From assembly GCA_947466965.1 (NCBI GenBank), contig CANIFU010000016.1, positions 1-49,430 of the forward strand: a stretch of 49,430 nt of DNA. The letters are read 5' to 3'. The notes beneath the pieces are model-generated. The model had not been told where the DNA came from, made no database searches, and saw nothing but the letters and a program-made list of their open reading frames with translations. Origin of the DNA: Bacteroidota bacterium. Its GTDB lineage: Bacteria; Bacteroidota; Bacteroidia; 2-12-FULL-35-15. The position numbers and the translations under genes were made by a program. Position 1 is the first letter of the stretch, and each line of letters starts with the position of its first letter. Shown one piece after another: positions 42,636 through 49,430 of the stretch.

Positions 42636-45539
42636 TTATTTGATTGTAATTTCATCCACAAAGATAAAAGCATCGCCACCAGCACCCATATGCCATTCGG
42701 GAAGTTTCCCAAAATTATAGGCTTTCACTTTAATAAATCGAGCTTTAACTTGTTGATTGGACAGAACAAACTGTTTGATCTGAGTCAAATCCTCTTTCGG
42801 ACTGATTGTATGAGTTTCTGAGCCGATGAGTACAAACGTTTTATTGTCAGAAGAAGCATAAAATTCGACTTTTACAGGCATTAAAATCCAAGAACGGGAG
42901 TCTTGCAAAAAACCAACTTCGAAGGTGCTCAATTTTTTATTTTGTCCTAAATCGATCACAGCTTCAAAGTCCTGTGATTGGTATCCTTGCCACTCGCCTT
43001 TTCTCCAATTCAGATCTCCATGTAAACCATCAATGAGTCCTTCATCACCACCGGCAGTATATTGGGAATTGTATTTCGAATGAATATCAATTTTCCAATG
43101 ATTCGGGCGTTTAAAAAAACTACCGGAAATGGTATCACTCTTTTTAGATCCATTATCGGAATATGCATAAATCGTTCTTGAATCATTTATTACAAAAGGT
43201 TTTTCATATAATTGATAGCTCATTGGAGCATTTTCCATCGGTGATAAAGCATAATATGTATTTGCAGAAGAATTTATTTCAACCAAGGTATTGTCATCAA
43301 AAACTCTTGATTTTACTGCAATAGAAGGAACAGGCAATATTCGTTCTGCGGTCGACTTTTGAGGTGGTAAAGAATACTTAAAATCATCTTTGGCAGTGCT
43401 GCTCATCTCAAAAAACAAGTTACTACCCTCCATTATATCTGTGTATGCAATAAAATCTTCGGGATATTCATGATCATTTAAGGTCGTTGATTTGACATAG
43501 TAATTATCAATCGAATTGTTTTTTGAACTTATAGTAAAAATCTTACCATTCTCTAAATGAACTTTTGCAGAAGAAAATCCGGGAGTACCAATCATAAAAC
43601 TTCCAGCACCTGGAGTAACCTGATAAATTCCTAAAGCACTCAATACATACCATGCGCTCATCTGTCCGCAATCTTCATTACCAATCAATCCATCCGGCAA
43701 AGGTTTATAAAACTCCGTTAGGATTTGATGAATTCGGCTTTGTGTTTTAGAAGGCCGGCTTACAAAATTATATAAATAGGCCATGTGATGGCTGGGTTCG
43801 TTACCATGCGCATATTGCCCAATTAATCCTGTTATATCGACTTGTTCTCTTCCTGTAGTTTGGTTGGATGTAGTGAATAATTCATCTAATTTATTTTCAA
43901 ATTTTTGCTCTCCTCCCATTGCATTTATCAAACCGTAAATATCTTGAGGAACAAAAAAAGTATATTGCCAGGAGTTTCCTTCAGTAAAATTATTATTCAC
44001 CTCGCGGGGTTCAAATGGCGTTAACCAGCCTCCATTTTTCTTTGGTCGCATAAAACCTTTCTCCTTATCAAAAACATTTTTCCACGATTGTGAGCGTTTC
44101 ATAAAATAGGTGTAATCTGTTGGTCTATTTAAAATAGAAGCCATTTGTGCAATGCACCAATCATCATAAGCATATTCCAATGTTTTCGAAACACTTTCAT
44201 GTTCATCGTCCATTGCAATAAATCCATTTTGTTTATATGCTTTTAAACCCAAATGATCCAACATGGCACTGTGTTTACTTGCTTCAAAGGCTTGTTCATA
44301 ATCAAATCCTTTTATTCCTTTCAGCATTGCATCTGCTATTACACTCACAGCGTGATAACCAATCATACAATCGGTTTCATTACTTGCGAGCTCCCAAACA
44401 GGCAATCGCCCACCTTGATCATACTGAGCCAAAAACGTATTGATAAAATCAGCTGTTCGTTTCTGATCAATGATTGTATACAATGGATGCGCGGCACGAA
44501 AGGTATCCCATAAAGAGAAAACAGAATAATAGGTAAATCCATTCGCTTTATGAGTTTCCCCATCTCTACCTCTATACATCCCATCTACATCCATCGCCAC
44601 ATTCGGTTGTATCATGGTGTGATAGAGGGATGTATAAAATATTTTCAACTTTTCAGAATCATTGGATTGAACTTCTATTTTACTTAACGCTATATCCCAT
44701 GCAGCAGCTGCTGCTTTTTTTATTTTCTCGAAATCCCAATCCGGTAATTCTGCTTTCATATTTTTTTCAGCACCTTCATAACTAACAGGTGAAAGCGATA
44801 CCTTTACCATGATTACTTCGTCTTTTTTTATCTTGAAACCGAAGGACTGACAAGAACTATAATAAGTTCCGGCTGAACCTTTCATTTCTTTCCTTAGCGG
44901 GGTATTCTCTATAAAATCTTTTGAAAATTCTATTCTTGCAAAAAGTATTTGCTCTTTTGCCCACGCTTCGCTCTTCCTATAGACATTTAATGTTCTTGAG
45001 TTTGAAACAACAATCTGTCCGTCTAATAATTTATCACGGTGTTCCAAATCAAGAATGATGTTGACTTCTCCGTCTTTATTAAATGTATATTTATGAATAC
45101 CTACACGAGTGTTTGCCGTCAATTCCACATCAATGCTATCATCCTCTAATTTAACAGCATAAAATCCTGCACTTGACTTTTCATTTTTATGAGAAAATTT
45201 GGAGGCGTATTTCGTTCTATCATAGCTAGATGGACCCATCATTGGCATAAGCATAATATCGCCGAAATCACTGCATCCTGTGCCACTTAAATGTGTATGT
45301 GAAAAGCCATAGATAACCGAATCGCTGTAATGGTAACCACTACAACCATCCCAACTCCCATCAATACGTGTATCCGGAGAAAGCTGCACCATTCCAAAAG
45401 GAACAGTTGCTCCCGGAAAGGTATGACCATGACCTCCTGTTCCAATCATTGGATCGACATGCTTAGAATAGTTTTGTTGTGCTGAAAGCGAGCCTACAAA
45501 AAACAAAAAATGGATTGCTAAAAAAATATAATATTTCAT
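42636..45539 (-). CDS. GH92 alpha-mannosidase-like glycoside hydrolase with C-terminal F5/8 (discoidin) domain
   Basis: A 967-residue secreted protein: signal peptide (MKYYIFLAIHFLFFVGSLSA) and the GH92 start YSKHVDPMIGTGGHGHTFPGA-type region. Characteristic motifs are GYSHTHLSGTG-like GFSHTHLSGTG, NETDCMIGYHA, GNEPSHHMAYLYN and NEDCGQMSAWYVLSALG, which carry the calcium and acid/base residues. GH92 enzymes are calcium-dependent exo-alpha-mannosidases. The last ~130 residues (LDQSQDFEAVIDLGQNKKL-like, FYASSDNKTFVLIG) form a galactose-binding-like F5/8 type C domain. The ATG at 45539 is chosen because it begins the signal peptide, one base after the GH2 stop. The gene belongs to the cutC-GH2-GH92 operon. 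Confidence 0.92.
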   Translation of the reverse strand: MKYYIFLAIHFLFFVGSLSAQQNYSKHVDPMIGTGGHGHTFPGATVPFGMVQLSPDTRIDGSWDGCSGYHYSDSVIYGFSHTHLSGTGCSDFGDIMLMPMMGPSSYDRTKYASKFSHKNEKSSAGFYAVKLEDDSIDVELTANTRVGIHKYTFNKDGEVNIILDLEHRDKLLDGQIVVSNSRTLNVYRKSEAWAKEQILFARIEFSKDFIENTPLRKEMKGSAGTYYSSCQSFGFKIKKDEVIMVKVSLSPVSYEGAEKNMKAELPDWDFEKIKKAAAAAWDIALSKIEVQSNDSEKLKIFYTSLYHTMIQPNVAMDVDGMYRGRDGETHKANGFTYYSVFSLWDTFRAAHPLYTIIDQKRTADFINTFLAQYDQGGRLPVWELASNETDCMIGYHAVSVIADAMLKGIKGFDYEQAFEASKHSAMLDHLGLKAYKQNGFIAMDDEHESVSKTLEYAYDDWCIAQMASILNRPTDYTYFMKRSQSWKNVFDKEKGFMRPKKNGGWLTPFEPREVNNNFTEGNSWQYTFFVPQDIYGLINAMGGEQKFENKLDELFTTSNQTTGREQVDITGLIGQYAHGNEPSHHMAYLYNFVSRPSKTQSRIHQILTEFYKPLPDGLIGNEDCGQMSAWYVLSALGIYQVTPGAGSFMIGTPGFSSAKVHLENGKIFTISSKNNSIDNYYVKSTTLNDHEYPEDFIAYTDIMEGSNLFFEMSSTAKDDFKYSLPPQKSTAERILPVPSIAVKSRVFDDNTLVEINSSANTYYALSPMENAPMSYQLYEKPFVINDSRTIYAYSDNGSKKSDTISGSFFKRPNHWKIDIHSKYNSQYTAGGDEGLIDGLHGDLNWRKGEWQGYQSQDFEAVIDLGQNKKLSTFEVGFLQDSRSWILMPVKVEFYASSDNKTFVLIGSETHTISPKEDLTQIKQFVLSNQQVKARFIKVKAYNFGKLPEWHMGAGGDAFIFVDEITIK

Positions 45540-45540
45540 A

Positions 45541-48099
45541 TTAATACGTATCAACAAGTGATTTAACTATAACTTTATTTTCAAGATGATTTAATTTCAT
45601 CTGTTCAGGTATATAGATTATTTTTTTTTCTCCAGGTAAAAGATCAAAATAATTATCATTCAAGTTTACATCTTGTCCATTAAAAGTAATAAAAACATCT
45701 TTCATCAGCACGTCTGATGTGATACTAAAACATTGACCTTTACCACAAACATCTTCCCGAACAGTGAAATTAGGCTTATAAAGAACAAGCTCCTTTGGCT
45801 TAACAAAATAATGAACCGCAGTTACTTCTAAAATCGGATTATTGGATTGAATGATGGAGGATTTTAAAAATACTTTTTTAAAATCAATTCCAACAAAATT
45901 ATTTTTATTAAATCGGTACACTTTTTTTGACGTATTGGCATCTATTACAATTGGTAATTTCTCTGACCACAATACCTTACCGGTAAAGTCATACAATCCA
46001 ATTGATAAATCAGCCTTTAGCCCTTGCAGCAAATCAGAAACCACATACACAAAGCAGGAATCCTCCTGTTGATCGATTGTAATTATTACCTCTTTATATG
46101 AACGCTTGGCTTGATAGTGCGAAGCTTTCCAATGATTAAAATAATCCACAGAGCTCCATGAAGTAACTGGCCAACAATCATTCATCTGCCAATATAAGGT
46201 TCCCATACAATAGGGTCTAGCTCTTCGGTGCGCTTCAATGGCCATTTTCATTCCTTTTGATTGAAGGAGTTGTGAGACATAAATATAGTCTTCTATTTTT
46301 TTAGGAACACTATAATCTCGTTCCATATATGTATTAATCGTCTTATATCCTGTTGGATGTTTTTGATGCGCATTTATAATATCAGAGTCAATTGTATCAG
46401 TTGAATTGTGTTTGACAATTTTAGAATCAAAAGCACCAAATCTATAGAATGTATTCAAACTTGGCATTCCTTGAAATCCGTATTCGCTGACAAACCTGCC
46501 AATTTTTTTTTCGTAATTTTCAAAAGGTTCCATTCCCCACCATACTCCCCAATAATGTGAATCTCCTTGTTGCAAACTTTCTTTATGCCCCCAACCGATA
46601 CTCGGAGAAGAAGGCCAATAGGCTCTACTACCATCATGCATCGTCACTAAATCATTCATAAGATTATCAAATAAGGCGAAATTATTTTGTGCAATTTCAG
46701 TTGAATCTGTTGCTGAATAGTTAAATTGTTTTTGCCAGCCCCAATTTTTCCATCCTTCTTCCACTTCATTGTTTCCACACCACAAAGCAACACATGGATG
46801 ATTTCGCAAACGCTCGATTTGATAGATCACTTCTTGAGCAACATTGTTTACAAAATGATCGTCGCCAGGATACATGGCACATGCAAACATAAAATCCTGC
46901 CAAACCAATATTCCGTTTTTATCACAGGCATTGTAAAAGGCATCATCGGCGTATACGCCACCGCCCCAAACGCGTAACATGTTCATATTGGCATCTACAG
47001 CATTTTCAATAATTGTTTCGTACTTCTCTTTTTTTACACGAGGAAGGAAATTATCTTGTGGAATATAATTGGCGCCCTTCATAAAAACAGGAACACCATT
47101 TAATTTAAAATAAAAACTTTTTCCAATACTATCCTTATCTTGAATCAATTCGATGGTACGCAAGCCAATATCAATTAGTTTCCTATCAAGAAAACGAGAG
47201 TCATAAGAAAGACTTATTTCAAAATTGTATAATGTGGGAAAACCCAAACCATTGCTCCACCATCTCTGAGGATTTTTCACATTATAAAAAACAGAGTATC
47301 TATGAATTCCTTTTTTAAGCTTTAGTTTAGAAATGATCTGACCACTATAATCGATTTTATTTTCCTTCATTATTTCGAGGTAGGCATTTGCATCTAGATC
47401 ACTTTGTATCTCACAAACAAACTCCAATTCGGCAAGAGTATCTGATAAGGACTGTTGGATATACTTTATATTTAGAATCCGTGCGTCGCTCCAACTGAGC
47501 ATTGTCACATTTTTCCATATTCCACAGGTCACAAAACGAGGCCCCCAATCCCAACCATATTGATACTGCGCTTTTCTCGTAAATACTTTTTCATCGCCAG
47601 GTAAAGTGTAAGCAAGTTTTTTTGCTTCTGCTTTCCCTCTATTTACAGCAGATTCAAACACAACATGTAATTTATTTTTCCCTTTGTGCACATATTTTTT
47701 AATATCGGACTTCCAGCTCCGAAACATGTTATCAGCAATAAGAATAAGTGAATCGTTTACATAGACCTTAGCATAGGTGTCCAAGCCATCAAATTTCAAT
47801 TCAAGATGAGATTGCAACAATTCTGATTTCGAAACTATAAACGTAGTTTGATATTCCCAATCTTCATTTTCGATCCACTGCAACTCTTTTTCATTATCAG
47901 CATAAAATGGATCAGGTATAAGTTTATTATAAAACAGGTCGGTGTGAACTGTTCCGGGAACAACGGCTTTCAACCATTTTTTATCACTCGCCTTTTTGAA
48001 TTCCCATTTATTTTTTATGAATTTTTTTTCAAGCATCTGCGCAGGAAGCACAAAAGGGAAAATGATTACAAATAAATATTTTAACAAACGACACTTCAT
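45541..48099 (-). CDS. GH2 beta-mannosidase
   Basis: An 852-residue protein with a signal peptide (MKCRLLKYLFVIIFPFVLPA). The N-terminal sugar-binding domain has WLKAVVPGTVHTDLFYNKLIPDPFY, typical of beta-mannosidases, and the TIM barrel follows (MLRVWGGGVYADDAFYNACDKNGILVWQDFMFACAMYP region). The acid/base Glu is in WCGNNEVEEGW and the nucleophile Glu in RFVSEYGFQGMP. It removes terminal beta-mannose, as at the core of N-glycans or in manno-oligosaccharides. It overlaps cutC by four bases (ATGA) and is one base from the GH92 gene, which would remove alpha-mannose from the same glycans. Confidence 0.94.
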   Translation of the reverse strand: MKCRLLKYLFVIIFPFVLPAQMLEKKFIKNKWEFKKASDKKWLKAVVPGTVHTDLFYNKLIPDPFYADNEKELQWIENEDWEYQTTFIVSKSELLQSHLELKFDGLDTYAKVYVNDSLILIADNMFRSWKSDIKKYVHKGKNKLHVVFESAVNRGKAEAKKLAYTLPGDEKVFTRKAQYQYGWDWGPRFVTCGIWKNVTMLSWSDARILNIKYIQQSLSDTLAELEFVCEIQSDLDANAYLEIMKENKIDYSGQIISKLKLKKGIHRYSVFYNVKNPQRWWSNGLGFPTLYNFEISLSYDSRFLDRKLIDIGLRTIELIQDKDSIGKSFYFKLNGVPVFMKGANYIPQDNFLPRVKKEKYETIIENAVDANMNMLRVWGGGVYADDAFYNACDKNGILVWQDFMFACAMYPGDDHFVNNVAQEVIYQIERLRNHPCVALWCGNNEVEEGWKNWGWQKQFNYSATDSTEIAQNNFALFDNLMNDLVTMHDGSRAYWPSSPSIGWGHKESLQQGDSHYWGVWWGMEPFENYEKKIGRFVSEYGFQGMPSLNTFYRFGAFDSKIVKHNSTDTIDSDIINAHQKHPTGYKTINTYMERDYSVPKKIEDYIYVSQLLQSKGMKMAIEAHRRARPYCMGTLYWQMNDCWPVTSWSSVDYFNHWKASHYQAKRSYKEVIITIDQQEDSCFVYVVSDLLQGLKADLSIGLYDFTGKVLWSEKLPIVIDANTSKKVYRFNKNNFVGIDFKKVFLKSSIIQSNNPILEVTAVHYFVKPKELVLYKPNFTVREDVCGKGQCFSITSDVLMKDVFITFNGQDVNLNDNYFDLLPGEKKIIYIPEQMKLNHLENKVIVKSLVDTY

Positions 48100-48764
48100 G
48101 ATAATTTCACTTTAAGCAATTTCACTTCTTCCAAATCAGCTCTATCATTTTTTACAATTGCAGATGAATGATAATAAGGGGTTTCAACTTTCGACTTGAG
48201 CAATTCAAGATTTGATGAACGAACTCCACCTCCAGGCATTATTGTAATTCTATTATTCGACTGCTTTAGTAATTCTATTAAATTTTCAATTCCATCCATG
48301 GCAGCTTTTGTCAATCCGGATGTGAGTATTGTTTTAAAACCACACGCAATCACATCTTCTAAGTTCTGCTGTAAATTTTTAGAAACATCGAATGCTCTAT
48401 GAAAGCTACAAGGTAAAGGCTTTGCTAATTCAACTAATGCTTTGTTTTTATCAACAGCTACGCTTCCATCTTCATTTAAAATTCCAAACACAAATCCATC
48501 CGCCTTCATTTTTTTAAAATACAAGATATCCTTTTTCATTTGTTCAAACTCATTATCTGTATAAATAAAATTAATAGCACGTGGACGAATCATCACAAAA
48601 AGTGGAATGTGAATTAGTTTTCTGGCTGCTAAAAACGTTCCATAATTCGGAGTAATTCCTCCTGAAGAGAAGTCGTCACATAACTCTATTCTGTCGGCAC
48701 CACCTTGCTGGGCAATGAGTGCTGATTCTAAATTAAAACATGCTATTTCGAGTTTTGCGTTCAT
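48096..48764 (-). CDS. cutC: CutC-family protein
   Basis: A 222-residue TIM-barrel protein of the CutC family: LEIACFNLESALIAQQGGADRIELCDDFSSGGITPNYG at the N-terminus, then MIRPR, CSFHRAFD, TSGLTKAA and IMPGGGVR. The family was named for copper homeostasis, but in Bacteroidota it is often encoded among glycoside hydrolases, as here, so a sugar-related role is possible. It overlaps the beta-mannosidase gene by four bases and starts three bases after the DUF559 stop. Confidence 0.92.
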   Translation of the reverse strand: MNAKLEIACFNLESALIAQQGGADRIELCDDFSSGGITPNYGTFLAARKLIHIPLFVMIRPRAINFIYTDNEFEQMKKDILYFKKMKADGFVFGILNEDGSVAVDKNKALVELAKPLPCSFHRAFDVSKNLQQNLEDVIACGFKTILTSGLTKAAMDGIENLIELLKQSNNRITIMPGGGVRSSNLELLKSKVETPYYHSSAIVKNDRADLEEVKLLKVKLS

Positions 48765-48767
48765 TTT

Positions 48768-49241
48768 TTATTCCCCCTTGGAGAAGGGGGCTAGGGGGAT
48801 TGAGTTCGTTTCTTCTTTTGAGGCTATTATTGGTAATGTCACTTCTTGCTCTTCCCCCTTGGAGAAGGGGGCTAGGGGGATTGATTCATTTTCAATGAAT
48901 TCCTCAATATAAATATTCAATGCTCTTCTAACGTTTTCAAAATCGTGTTTTACATCATGCTCGGTAAACCTAATTACTTTATATCCTAGTTCATTTAATC
49001 TTTTATCTCTCTTAATATCGGTATCATATTTAAACTGATGAGAATATCCATCTACTTCTATAACAAGTTTTAAACTTCGTGAAATAAAATCTACAATAAA
49101 GTTTTCAATTGGATATTGACGATTGAATTGATAACCTGTCTGTTTCCTGCTTAACACATTTTTCCATAATAATATCTCACCGAAAGTAGAATTGTTTCTA
49201 TTTTCTCGAGCGAATGGTTTTAGTTCCTTATTATAAGTCAT
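48768..49241 (-). CDS. DUF559 (Vsr-like PD-(D/E)XK) nuclease with repeat-derived C-terminal tail
   Basis: A 157-residue protein. Residues 1-115 are a DUF559 domain related to Vsr and restriction-type nucleases: LWKNVLSRKQTGYQFNRQ, the catalytic Asp51 in FIVDF, Glu62-x-Asp64 in IEVDGYSH, and DKRLNELGYKVIRFTE. Residues 120-130 and 147-157 are two identical copies of SIPLAPFSKGE, encoded by two 33-bp hairpin repeats (48852-48884 and 48771-48803) read in frame; the second ends at the stop codon. The core is of normal family length, so the tail looks like an addition. It may be cotranscribed with cutC, but its flanking inverted repeats suggest a separately acquired unit. Confidence 0.85.
   Translation of the reverse strand: MTYNKELKPFARENRNNSTFGEILLWKNVLSRKQTGYQFNRQYPIENFIVDFISRSLKLVIEVDGYSHQFKYDTDIKRDKRLNELGYKVIRFTEHDVKHDFENVRRALNIYIEEFIENESIPLAPFSKGEEQEVTLPIIASKEETNSIPLAPFSKGE
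48771..48803 (+). repeat. 33-bp hairpin repeat, copy R1
   Basis: Begins TTCCCCCTTGGAGAAGGGGG and continues with CTAGGGGGATTGA. CCCCCTT and AAGGGGG form a perfect 7-bp stem with a GGAG loop. Identical to R2 (48852-48884) and inverted relative to R3 (49269-49300). It encodes the last 11 residues of the DUF559 protein on the minus strand. Confidence 0.92.
48852..48884 (+). repeat. 33-bp hairpin repeat, copy R2
   Basis: Identical over 33 bp to R1, 81 bp to its left, and in the same orientation. It encodes residues 120-130 of the DUF559 protein in the same frame as R1. Confidence 0.92.
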
Positions 49242-49264
49242 ATTTCTTTACAATTGTGATACCC

Positions 49265-49430
49265 AACATCAATCCCCCTGCCCCCTTCTCCAAGGGGGAA
49301 TTGTCCTTATTGAAATTTTACTTTACTAATAAAATTAAAAGCGCCAACATCAATCCCACTAACATCTTCTCCAAGGGGAAATTGTCCTTATTAAAATTTT
49401 ACTTTACTAATAAAATTAAAAGCGTCAACA
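49265..49430. repeat. 81-bp tandem repeat reaching the window edge
   Basis: Unit 1 (49265-49345) and unit 2 (49346-49426) are near-identical, and a third copy starts with AACA at 49427. Each unit is a hairpin-repeat copy (degenerate in unit 2) plus ~49 bp of AT-rich sequence ending AAAATTAAAAGCG. No gene is visible here. Confidence 0.85.
49269..49300 (-). repeat. Inverted copy of the hairpin repeat, R3
   Basis: On the minus strand this reads as R1 with TA deleted and one base inserted or shifted in the GGGGGCAGGGGG part. It lies 28 bp upstream of the DUF559 start, so the gene is flanked by inverted copies R1 and R3, a 530-bp unit (48771-49300). Confidence 0.88.

Follow-up and report, generated by a model that had tools for sequence, protein, structure and literature searches.

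Inverted three-block repeats flank DUF559 nuclease genes across bacterial phyla in a probable homing-type mobile element

Introduction

DUF559 is a large protein family that is still listed in Pfam as being of "unknown function". One DUF559 intein gene is counted among the EDxHD homing endonucleases (PMC9403480). In a methylase mutant of Caulobacter, the DUF559 protein VsrA sets off a DNA damage response, and this protein has been proposed to be a mismatch-repair enzyme (PMC12907096).

The closest described repeats are the BoxC, PIT or intrastrand triplex motif (TM_ECO), which Holder et al. (2015, PMC4666352) described for E. coli and for >260 bacterial genomes. Known since the 1990s, these repeats have also been linked with genome instability; the E. 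coli motif forms an intrastrand triplex in vitro, and the authors, who listed 23 copies in E. coli K-12, reported no mobility gene nearby (PMC4666352). In a second class, the REP sequences, the foot of each repeat carries the defining tetranucleotide GTAG (PMC3733652). Here, a DUF559 gene that lies between inverted repeats in a Bacteroidota bacterium is described and compared with these systems.

Results

Structure of the locus

The window, that is, the whole stretch of 49,430 nucleotides that was analysed (contig CANIFU010000016.1, 1-49,430, forward strand; assembly GCA_947466965.1), contained only one DUF559 gene, located between inverted repeat copies within short 81-bp tandem arrays. The features of the locus were as follows.

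48096..48764, minus strand: cutC, flanking host gene (PF03932)
48768..49241, minus strand: DUF559 nuclease gene (PD-(D/E)XK, Vsr / I-Bth0305I-like), open reading frame of 157 aa
48921-49226, minus strand: DUF559 domain of this gene (PF04480, E 1.3e-28)
48771..48803, plus strand: three-block repeat R1, TTCCCCCTTGGAGAAGGGGGCTAGGGGGATTGA, with its third block facing the gene
48852..48884, plus strand: three-block repeat R2, 81 bp from R1 and within the DUF559 frame
48771..48893, no strand assigned: downstream-side 81-bp (27-codon) tandem units, the spacer of which recurs on contigs C23, C71 and C104
49269..49300, minus strand: three-block repeat R3, inverted relative to R1 and R2, upstream of the DUF559 gene
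49350..49381, minus strand: degenerate repeat R4, belonging to the next 81-bp unit
49263..49424, no strand assigned: upstream-side tandem units, 2 x 81 bp and 91% alike, in an array that runs beyond the contig end

The repeat consisted of three blocks, CCCCC-TTGGAGAA-GGGGG-CTA-GGGGG-ATTGA (design C5-loop-G5-CTA-G5), and its inverted copies at 48770-48797 and 49274-49301 matched at 93% over 28 nt. An earlier note on this DNA had described R1 and R3 as inverted copies of a 32-33-bp palindrome that flank a single nuclease gene in a compact 530-bp unit at 48771-49300. The inverted layout around a DUF559 gene was confirmed; the repeat itself has a third block beyond the palindrome, and R2, R4 and the 81-bp periodicity had been missed, the copies numbering at least four. 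Furthermore, the contig terminates at 49430 within the right-hand (upstream) array, so the unit extends past 49300. Another contig of the same genome (C22), carrying the asparaginase gene that lies upstream in relatives, ended in the same array. R1 and R2 lay inside the DUF559 reading frame and encoded its repetitive C-terminus (...SIPLAPFSKGE), such that the C-terminal ~45 aa of the protein were repeat-encoded.

On the other side of the locus, at 42636-48764, GH92 glycosidase and GH2 beta-mannosidase-type genes preceded cutC on the same strand, an arrangement that suggests a small mannan-degradation cluster.

The DUF559 protein

Alignment of 40 DUF559 sequences revealed 14 invariant columns, which included the nuclease residues R15, E22, R41, Q42, D51, E62, D64, H68 and D75. 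The AlphaFold model of the window protein (pLDDT 84) was matched by Foldseek to 3HRL, to the I-Bth0305I homing endonuclease domain (3R3P, probability 1.0) and to Vsr; sequence profiles also matched 3HRL and 3R3P (hmmsearch 3R3P, E 6e-6). On the basis of the modelled fold and the conserved acidic and histidine residues E22, D51, E62, D64, H68 and D75 the protein appears to belong to the EDxHD (I-Bth0305I-type) nucleases. An anti-phage defence gene was also considered and was rejected, as PADLOC gave no match to a defence family.

Association of the repeat with DUF559 genes

PF04480 was detected in 31 of 36 related genomes, in up to 5 copies each and at many unrelated places, and 40 of these loci were retrieved. 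A further 80 loci from other taxa were obtained by a profile scan of genome contigs. Most of the genomes were metagenome-assembled or lacked names, and loci close to contig ends were incomplete.

Nearly all 40 family loci carried inverted three-block repeats on both sides within ~200 bp of the gene, and every DUF559 lineage bore its own version of the repeat. Strong hairpins occurred at 4.1/kb upstream and 3.6/kb downstream within 100 bp of DUF559, compared with about 0.1/kb at 1-3 kb. The three-block motif was present at 2.3-2.7/kb within 350 bp, at 0-0.15/kb beyond that distance and at 0.006/kb in control loci (155 kb); overall, the repeats were enriched about 20- to 400-fold beside DUF559. 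Both sides carried a motif at 60 loci, and at 54 of these the nearest pair was inverted (binomial 5e-11). Smith-Waterman comparison of the upstream flank with the reverse-complemented downstream flank gave median scores of 26 for the family and 20.5 for other taxa, whereas control windows scored 9-9.5; inverted flanking repeats exceeded the 99th percentile of control windows at 36/40 family loci and 59/78 loci from other taxa. The upstream and downstream copies of one locus resembled each other far more than they resembled those of other loci (median score 26 vs 11). Two arrangements were found, with the third block pointing either towards the gene, as in the window, or away from it, as in most embedded copies. 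The earlier note had set against its own proposal an outcome in which repeats show no excess near DUF559 genes and relatives carry the gene without them; the enrichment and the locus counts given above are the reverse of that outcome.

The same repeat design was present at DUF559 genes of Acidobacteriota, Nitrospirota, Planctomycetota, Myxococcota, Ignavibacteriota, Balneolota, Bacteroidota, Pseudomonadota (alphaproteobacteria such as Sphingopyxis indica) and Cyanobacteriota, and repeat-flanked DUF559 genes were carried on plasmids in Qipengyuania, Picosynechococcus and Sphingomonas. With the methods used, a repeat pair was not detected at 10-25% of DUF559 loci, and a clear pair was missing at L139, L170, L172, L197 and L203, among others. 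When 148 Bacteroidota genomes were searched with one generic pattern, repeat count and DUF559 presence were only weakly linked (Fisher p = 0.09), since this pattern catches one sub-type together with chance matches in GC-rich genomes; repeats still lay beside the DUF559 gene in several of these genomes (for example G068 and G181). The association that the earlier note proposed to look for in other Bacteroidota was evident at the level of family loci (36/40) and weak as a presence/absence relationship across the phylum.

In an iron-sulphur operon on a Sphingomonas parapaucimobilis plasmid (L268), sufB and sufC were separated by DUF559 with near-perfect inverted repeats. In several relatives (L065, L068, L064, L072), DUF559 genes of one lineage shared a conserved location, immediately preceding an rsmI-like gene that begins with MKLYIVPTPIGNLEDIT.

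Copies in the same genome and empty sites in relatives

In the genome from which the window derives (G000; 3.1 Mb, 128 contigs), the exact 18-mer of the palindrome core was found 13 times, with 12 near copies, and the reversed control pattern was not found. This genome carries one DUF559 gene, and 3 of the 13 exact copies flank it. Together, these counts, which the earlier note had asked for, rule out chance as the origin of the window layout. Arrays on C23, C71 and C104 contained, besides the repeat, the spacer found in the DUF559 3' arrays, so pieces of the window locus have been copied elsewhere in the genome; the C71 array adjoined a protein that ends like SecA.

Asparaginase and cutC are adjacent in many relatives, and in those free of the element the two genes abut or overlap. 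The site was empty in G003, G005, G031 and G035, the overlap in G003 being ATGA, and it was occupied in G028, G009 and G033, with arrays of different lengths. In G027 the gene was absent, and two inverted repeats were present together with the spacer of the array; the junction fell inside CCCCCTT, which is common to both palindromes. The intergenic region in G035 (L208) contained a different repeat-like sequence, TCGGCTTAGCTCGAAATGACAAAAGCATTGTCATTTCGACC..., at the DUF559-element site.

Modules in frame inside core genes

Stop-free repeat-DUF559-repeat modules were found in frame in metH, at site A in ten loci and at site B in one, and also in acs (four), leuS (three), ileS, metG (two), cinA and a paaZ-like gene. 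Pfam confirmed host domains on both sides of the embedded DUF559, and the embedded repeats were translated as PSLTLPxGEG... and ...PLPxGEGRGG. An intein was rejected as the carrier, as eight embedded proteins showed only host domains and DUF559 (Pfam, E <= 1e-10); the flanks between host and DUF559 were short translated repeats. The host gene at L044 was first taken for yebC and instead encoded a BadF/BcrAD-type ATPase-like protein, with a match under the curated cut-off.

Repeats were also translated in other contexts. At L031 and L034 a solo three-block repeat, translated NSPLLRRGAGGEAEW, lay in frame in metH and DUF559 was absent. In rumen Bacteroidales (L178, L181, L189, L192), a GNAT acetyltransferase carried DUF559 as an in-frame C-terminal fusion, the two being linked by a translated repeat, ATPPLKGAGGIK.

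The acs site was empty, with approximately four codons between FQY and VYW, in about 25 relatives, among which the window's own genome is counted. In G034 this site read CCCCTCC-TCC-GGTGGGG, which has a scar-like appearance. Clean empty sites, the comparison that the earlier note had proposed, were thus available both at the window's own locus and in acs.

Modules were replaced at shared sites. The metH flanks of G016 and G033 were 98/95% identical at the protein level, whereas their site-A DUF559s were 49% identical and belonged to different clades; in the DNA alignment the flanks were alike up to the outer repeat ends and the interior had diverged. For the modules in acs, DUF559 identity was 80% between G011 and G014 (hosts 69/78%) and 69% between G014 and G035 (hosts 77/92%), so that DUF559 relationships were discordant with those of the hosts. 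In a quick DUF559 tree built from few columns, the metH site-A label appeared in three places, and acs (99) and leuS (98) formed one group each. Replacement at shared sites and tree discordance fit horizontal, site-preferring movement as read from these alignments, and the empty sites and swapped modules bear out the earlier suggestion of a mobile unit. Co-conversion in acs was examined as proof of homing and was set aside; no tract was found, and the C-terminal half of Acs was more conserved in all genomes.

These insertions also bear on the possibility of a conventional terminal-inverted-repeat transposon with DUF559 as a cut-and-paste transposase. Such an element would account for the terminal inverted repeats and for MITE-like non-autonomous relatives of ~145 bp, and a possible 3-bp duplication (GAC) was seen in acs of G035. 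However, there was no clear or consistent target-site duplication in the acs empty-site comparisons or at dispersed inverted pairs, insertion was site-preferring and repeatedly in frame, and the ends occurred in two opposite arrangements. In addition, the protein has a PD-(D/E)XK homing/Vsr fold, not that of a DDE, HUH or recombinase transposase. A transposon of this type is considered highly improbable.

Dispersed copies

The repeat sub-type TCCCCTCTTGAGAGGGGNNAGGGGTGTGT was present in 111 copies in G013 and in 69 copies in G014, where a decayed DUF559 gene of the matching clade lay beside a repeat. Six further genomes with the matching clade had 9-27 copies; G003, G007 and G009, in which the matching DUF559 was absent, had 11-15, and the other 25 genomes had 0-3. 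Overall, the sub-type co-occurred with its DUF559 clade (hypergeometric 5e-6). Many of the G013 copies were inverted pairs of ~141-153 bp (about 145) with diverged AT-rich spacers.

The genomes that have repeats without a matching DUF559 raise the question of whether the repeats are an independent family, distributed by another spreader or by replication slippage, that merely serves as an insertion target into or next to which DUF559 homes. At many loci with the third block facing inward, including the window, the gene seems to be set between two separate repeat units, and there is a precedent in certain insertion sequences, which target REP sequences (PMC1525189). In contrast to what pre-existing targets would predict, the empty acs and cutC-locus sites were free of repeats before insertion, the copies at any one locus matched each other best and the repeat versions were clade-specific. 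An independent repeat family is therefore regarded as unlikely.

Relationship to BoxC repeats and E. coli ycjD

When read by eye, the window repeat, CCCCCTT-GGAG-AAGGGGG-CTA-GGGGGAT, fitted the order C-stem, loop, G-stem, short loop and second G-stem with one mismatch; relative to the stricter 9-nt E. coli consensus it was related and not identical. Repeats of the window type thus appear, by their sequence design, to be members of the known BoxC/intrastrand-triplex class. In E. coli, BoxC copy no. 9 (1351239-1351204, Table 1 of PMC4666352) lies 168 bp from ycjD (1351407-1351760), which is a DUF559 protein by NCBI naming. The window protein matched the YcjD family model below its cut-off. In E. 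coli genomes, a 58-bp query containing BoxC copy no. 9 matched at 19 places per genome (median). BoxC-type repeats were present on only one side of ycjD, and the locus looked stable. Literature joining DUF559 to BoxC/TM or REP-like repeats was not found in a search of non-subscription literature. The repeat-flanked DUF559 genes of many phyla, which behave like mobile units and can lie in frame in essential genes, suggest DUF559 as a partner for the "orphan" BoxC/triplex repeats that E. coli shares with many other bacteria.

The stable-looking ycjD locus would also suit an ordinary Vsr/VsrA-like DNA-repair nuclease of the host, with the hairpins acting as terminators or regulatory structures or representing scars of instability, and Caulobacter VsrA does work in a DNA-damage setting (PMC12907096). 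Against this explanation, hairpin pairs lay inside the metH, acs and ileS frames, among others, where terminators would be harmful, and the gene was patchy, located at unrelated loci and swapped at one site. Furthermore, PIT/BoxC elements had neither terminator nor promoter activity (PMC4666352). A host-repair role is accordingly judged very unlikely. Given that the repeats lie within coding sequence, terminator or regulatory hairpins were also rejected as the principal interpretation.

Discussion

A homing-type mobile element is supported jointly by the layout, the empty sites, the swapping at one site, the dispersed derivatives and the fold of the nuclease. In this element a DUF559 gene would be combined with inverted three-block repeats, the solo repeats, ~145-bp pairs and arrays would be non-autonomous derivatives and the nuclease would act on its own repeats. 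This explanation is considered quite probable. The Vsr / I-Bth0305I-like PD-(D/E)XK nuclease would recognise and cut the repeat, which may be extruded into a hairpin or triplex, or a matching target site, or both. Repair of the break by the host would then insert a copy of all or part of the element, in the manner of homing; we infer such repair-copying, rather than transposition, as the mode of movement. Since its ends are stop-free in the frame used, the unit could sit inside essential genes, and there it may persist because only exact loss would be tolerated. Solo copies would be mobilised in trans. The earlier proposal of a nuclease that cuts or spreads its own repeats would fit this scheme.

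The data connect BoxC/triplex repeats and DUF559 across many phyla and identify YcjD as a testable partner in the best-studied bacterium. They also reveal that nuclease modules without a splicing domain lie in frame inside metH, acs and tRNA-synthetase genes. If confirmed, these findings would add a second repeat-nuclease system alongside REP-RAYT and would account for one class of "insert domains" that are mis-annotated in core enzymes. The wider proposition is of a pan-bacterial class of selfish element, in which a Vsr/EDxHD nuclease would recognise triplex-forming repeats of its own, cut them and spread them, would reside splicing-free in essential genes and would be the unrecognised source of BoxC/TM repeats, in E. 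coli via YcjD, and of the associated genome instability. This proposition is put forward tentatively, its likelihood being judged to fall a little short of even.

Comparison with known systems

The BoxC/PIT/TM repeats share with the present repeats the three-block C-loop-G-loop-G design, the solo copies and the inverted pairs. They have been described without a mobility gene, whereas here the repeats flank a specific nuclease family and, in addition, lie in frame inside genes.

In the REP/RAYT systems (REPtron, REPIN), too, short palindromic repeats in inverted orientation enclose an enzyme gene that is present in one copy, and non-autonomous singles, arrays and inverted pairs of ~100-150 bp are dispersed; the ~145-bp inverted pairs of G013 are much like REPINs in form. 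The RAYT enzyme is an HUH tyrosine transposase, whereas here it is a PF04480 DUF559 protein with a PD-(D/E)XK fold, and the GTAG foot is absent from the window repeat. The three-block repeat and the in-frame insertion in core genes are further differences. On the features tested, the element shares the layout of REP/RAYT, lacks the HUH transposase and the GTAG foot, and lies outside that group; the likeness to REP/RAYT drawn in the earlier note thus applies to the layout and not to the protein or the type of repeat.

The EDxHD homing endonucleases (I-Bth0305I, PDB 3R3P) have a catalytic domain that is alike in sequence and fold, and they too are located at conserved sites of core genes and are swapped at one site. 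They differ in that the present element has no surrounding intron or intein and has its own inverted repeats, which are also dispersed non-autonomously.

Finally, Rickettsia palindromic elements (RPE) are palindromic DNA that is inserted in frame in protein-coding genes and translated. They are not known to have a nuclease partner, and their sequence is different. The trait shared with the present element, palindromic DNA translated within genes, is a likeness by description.
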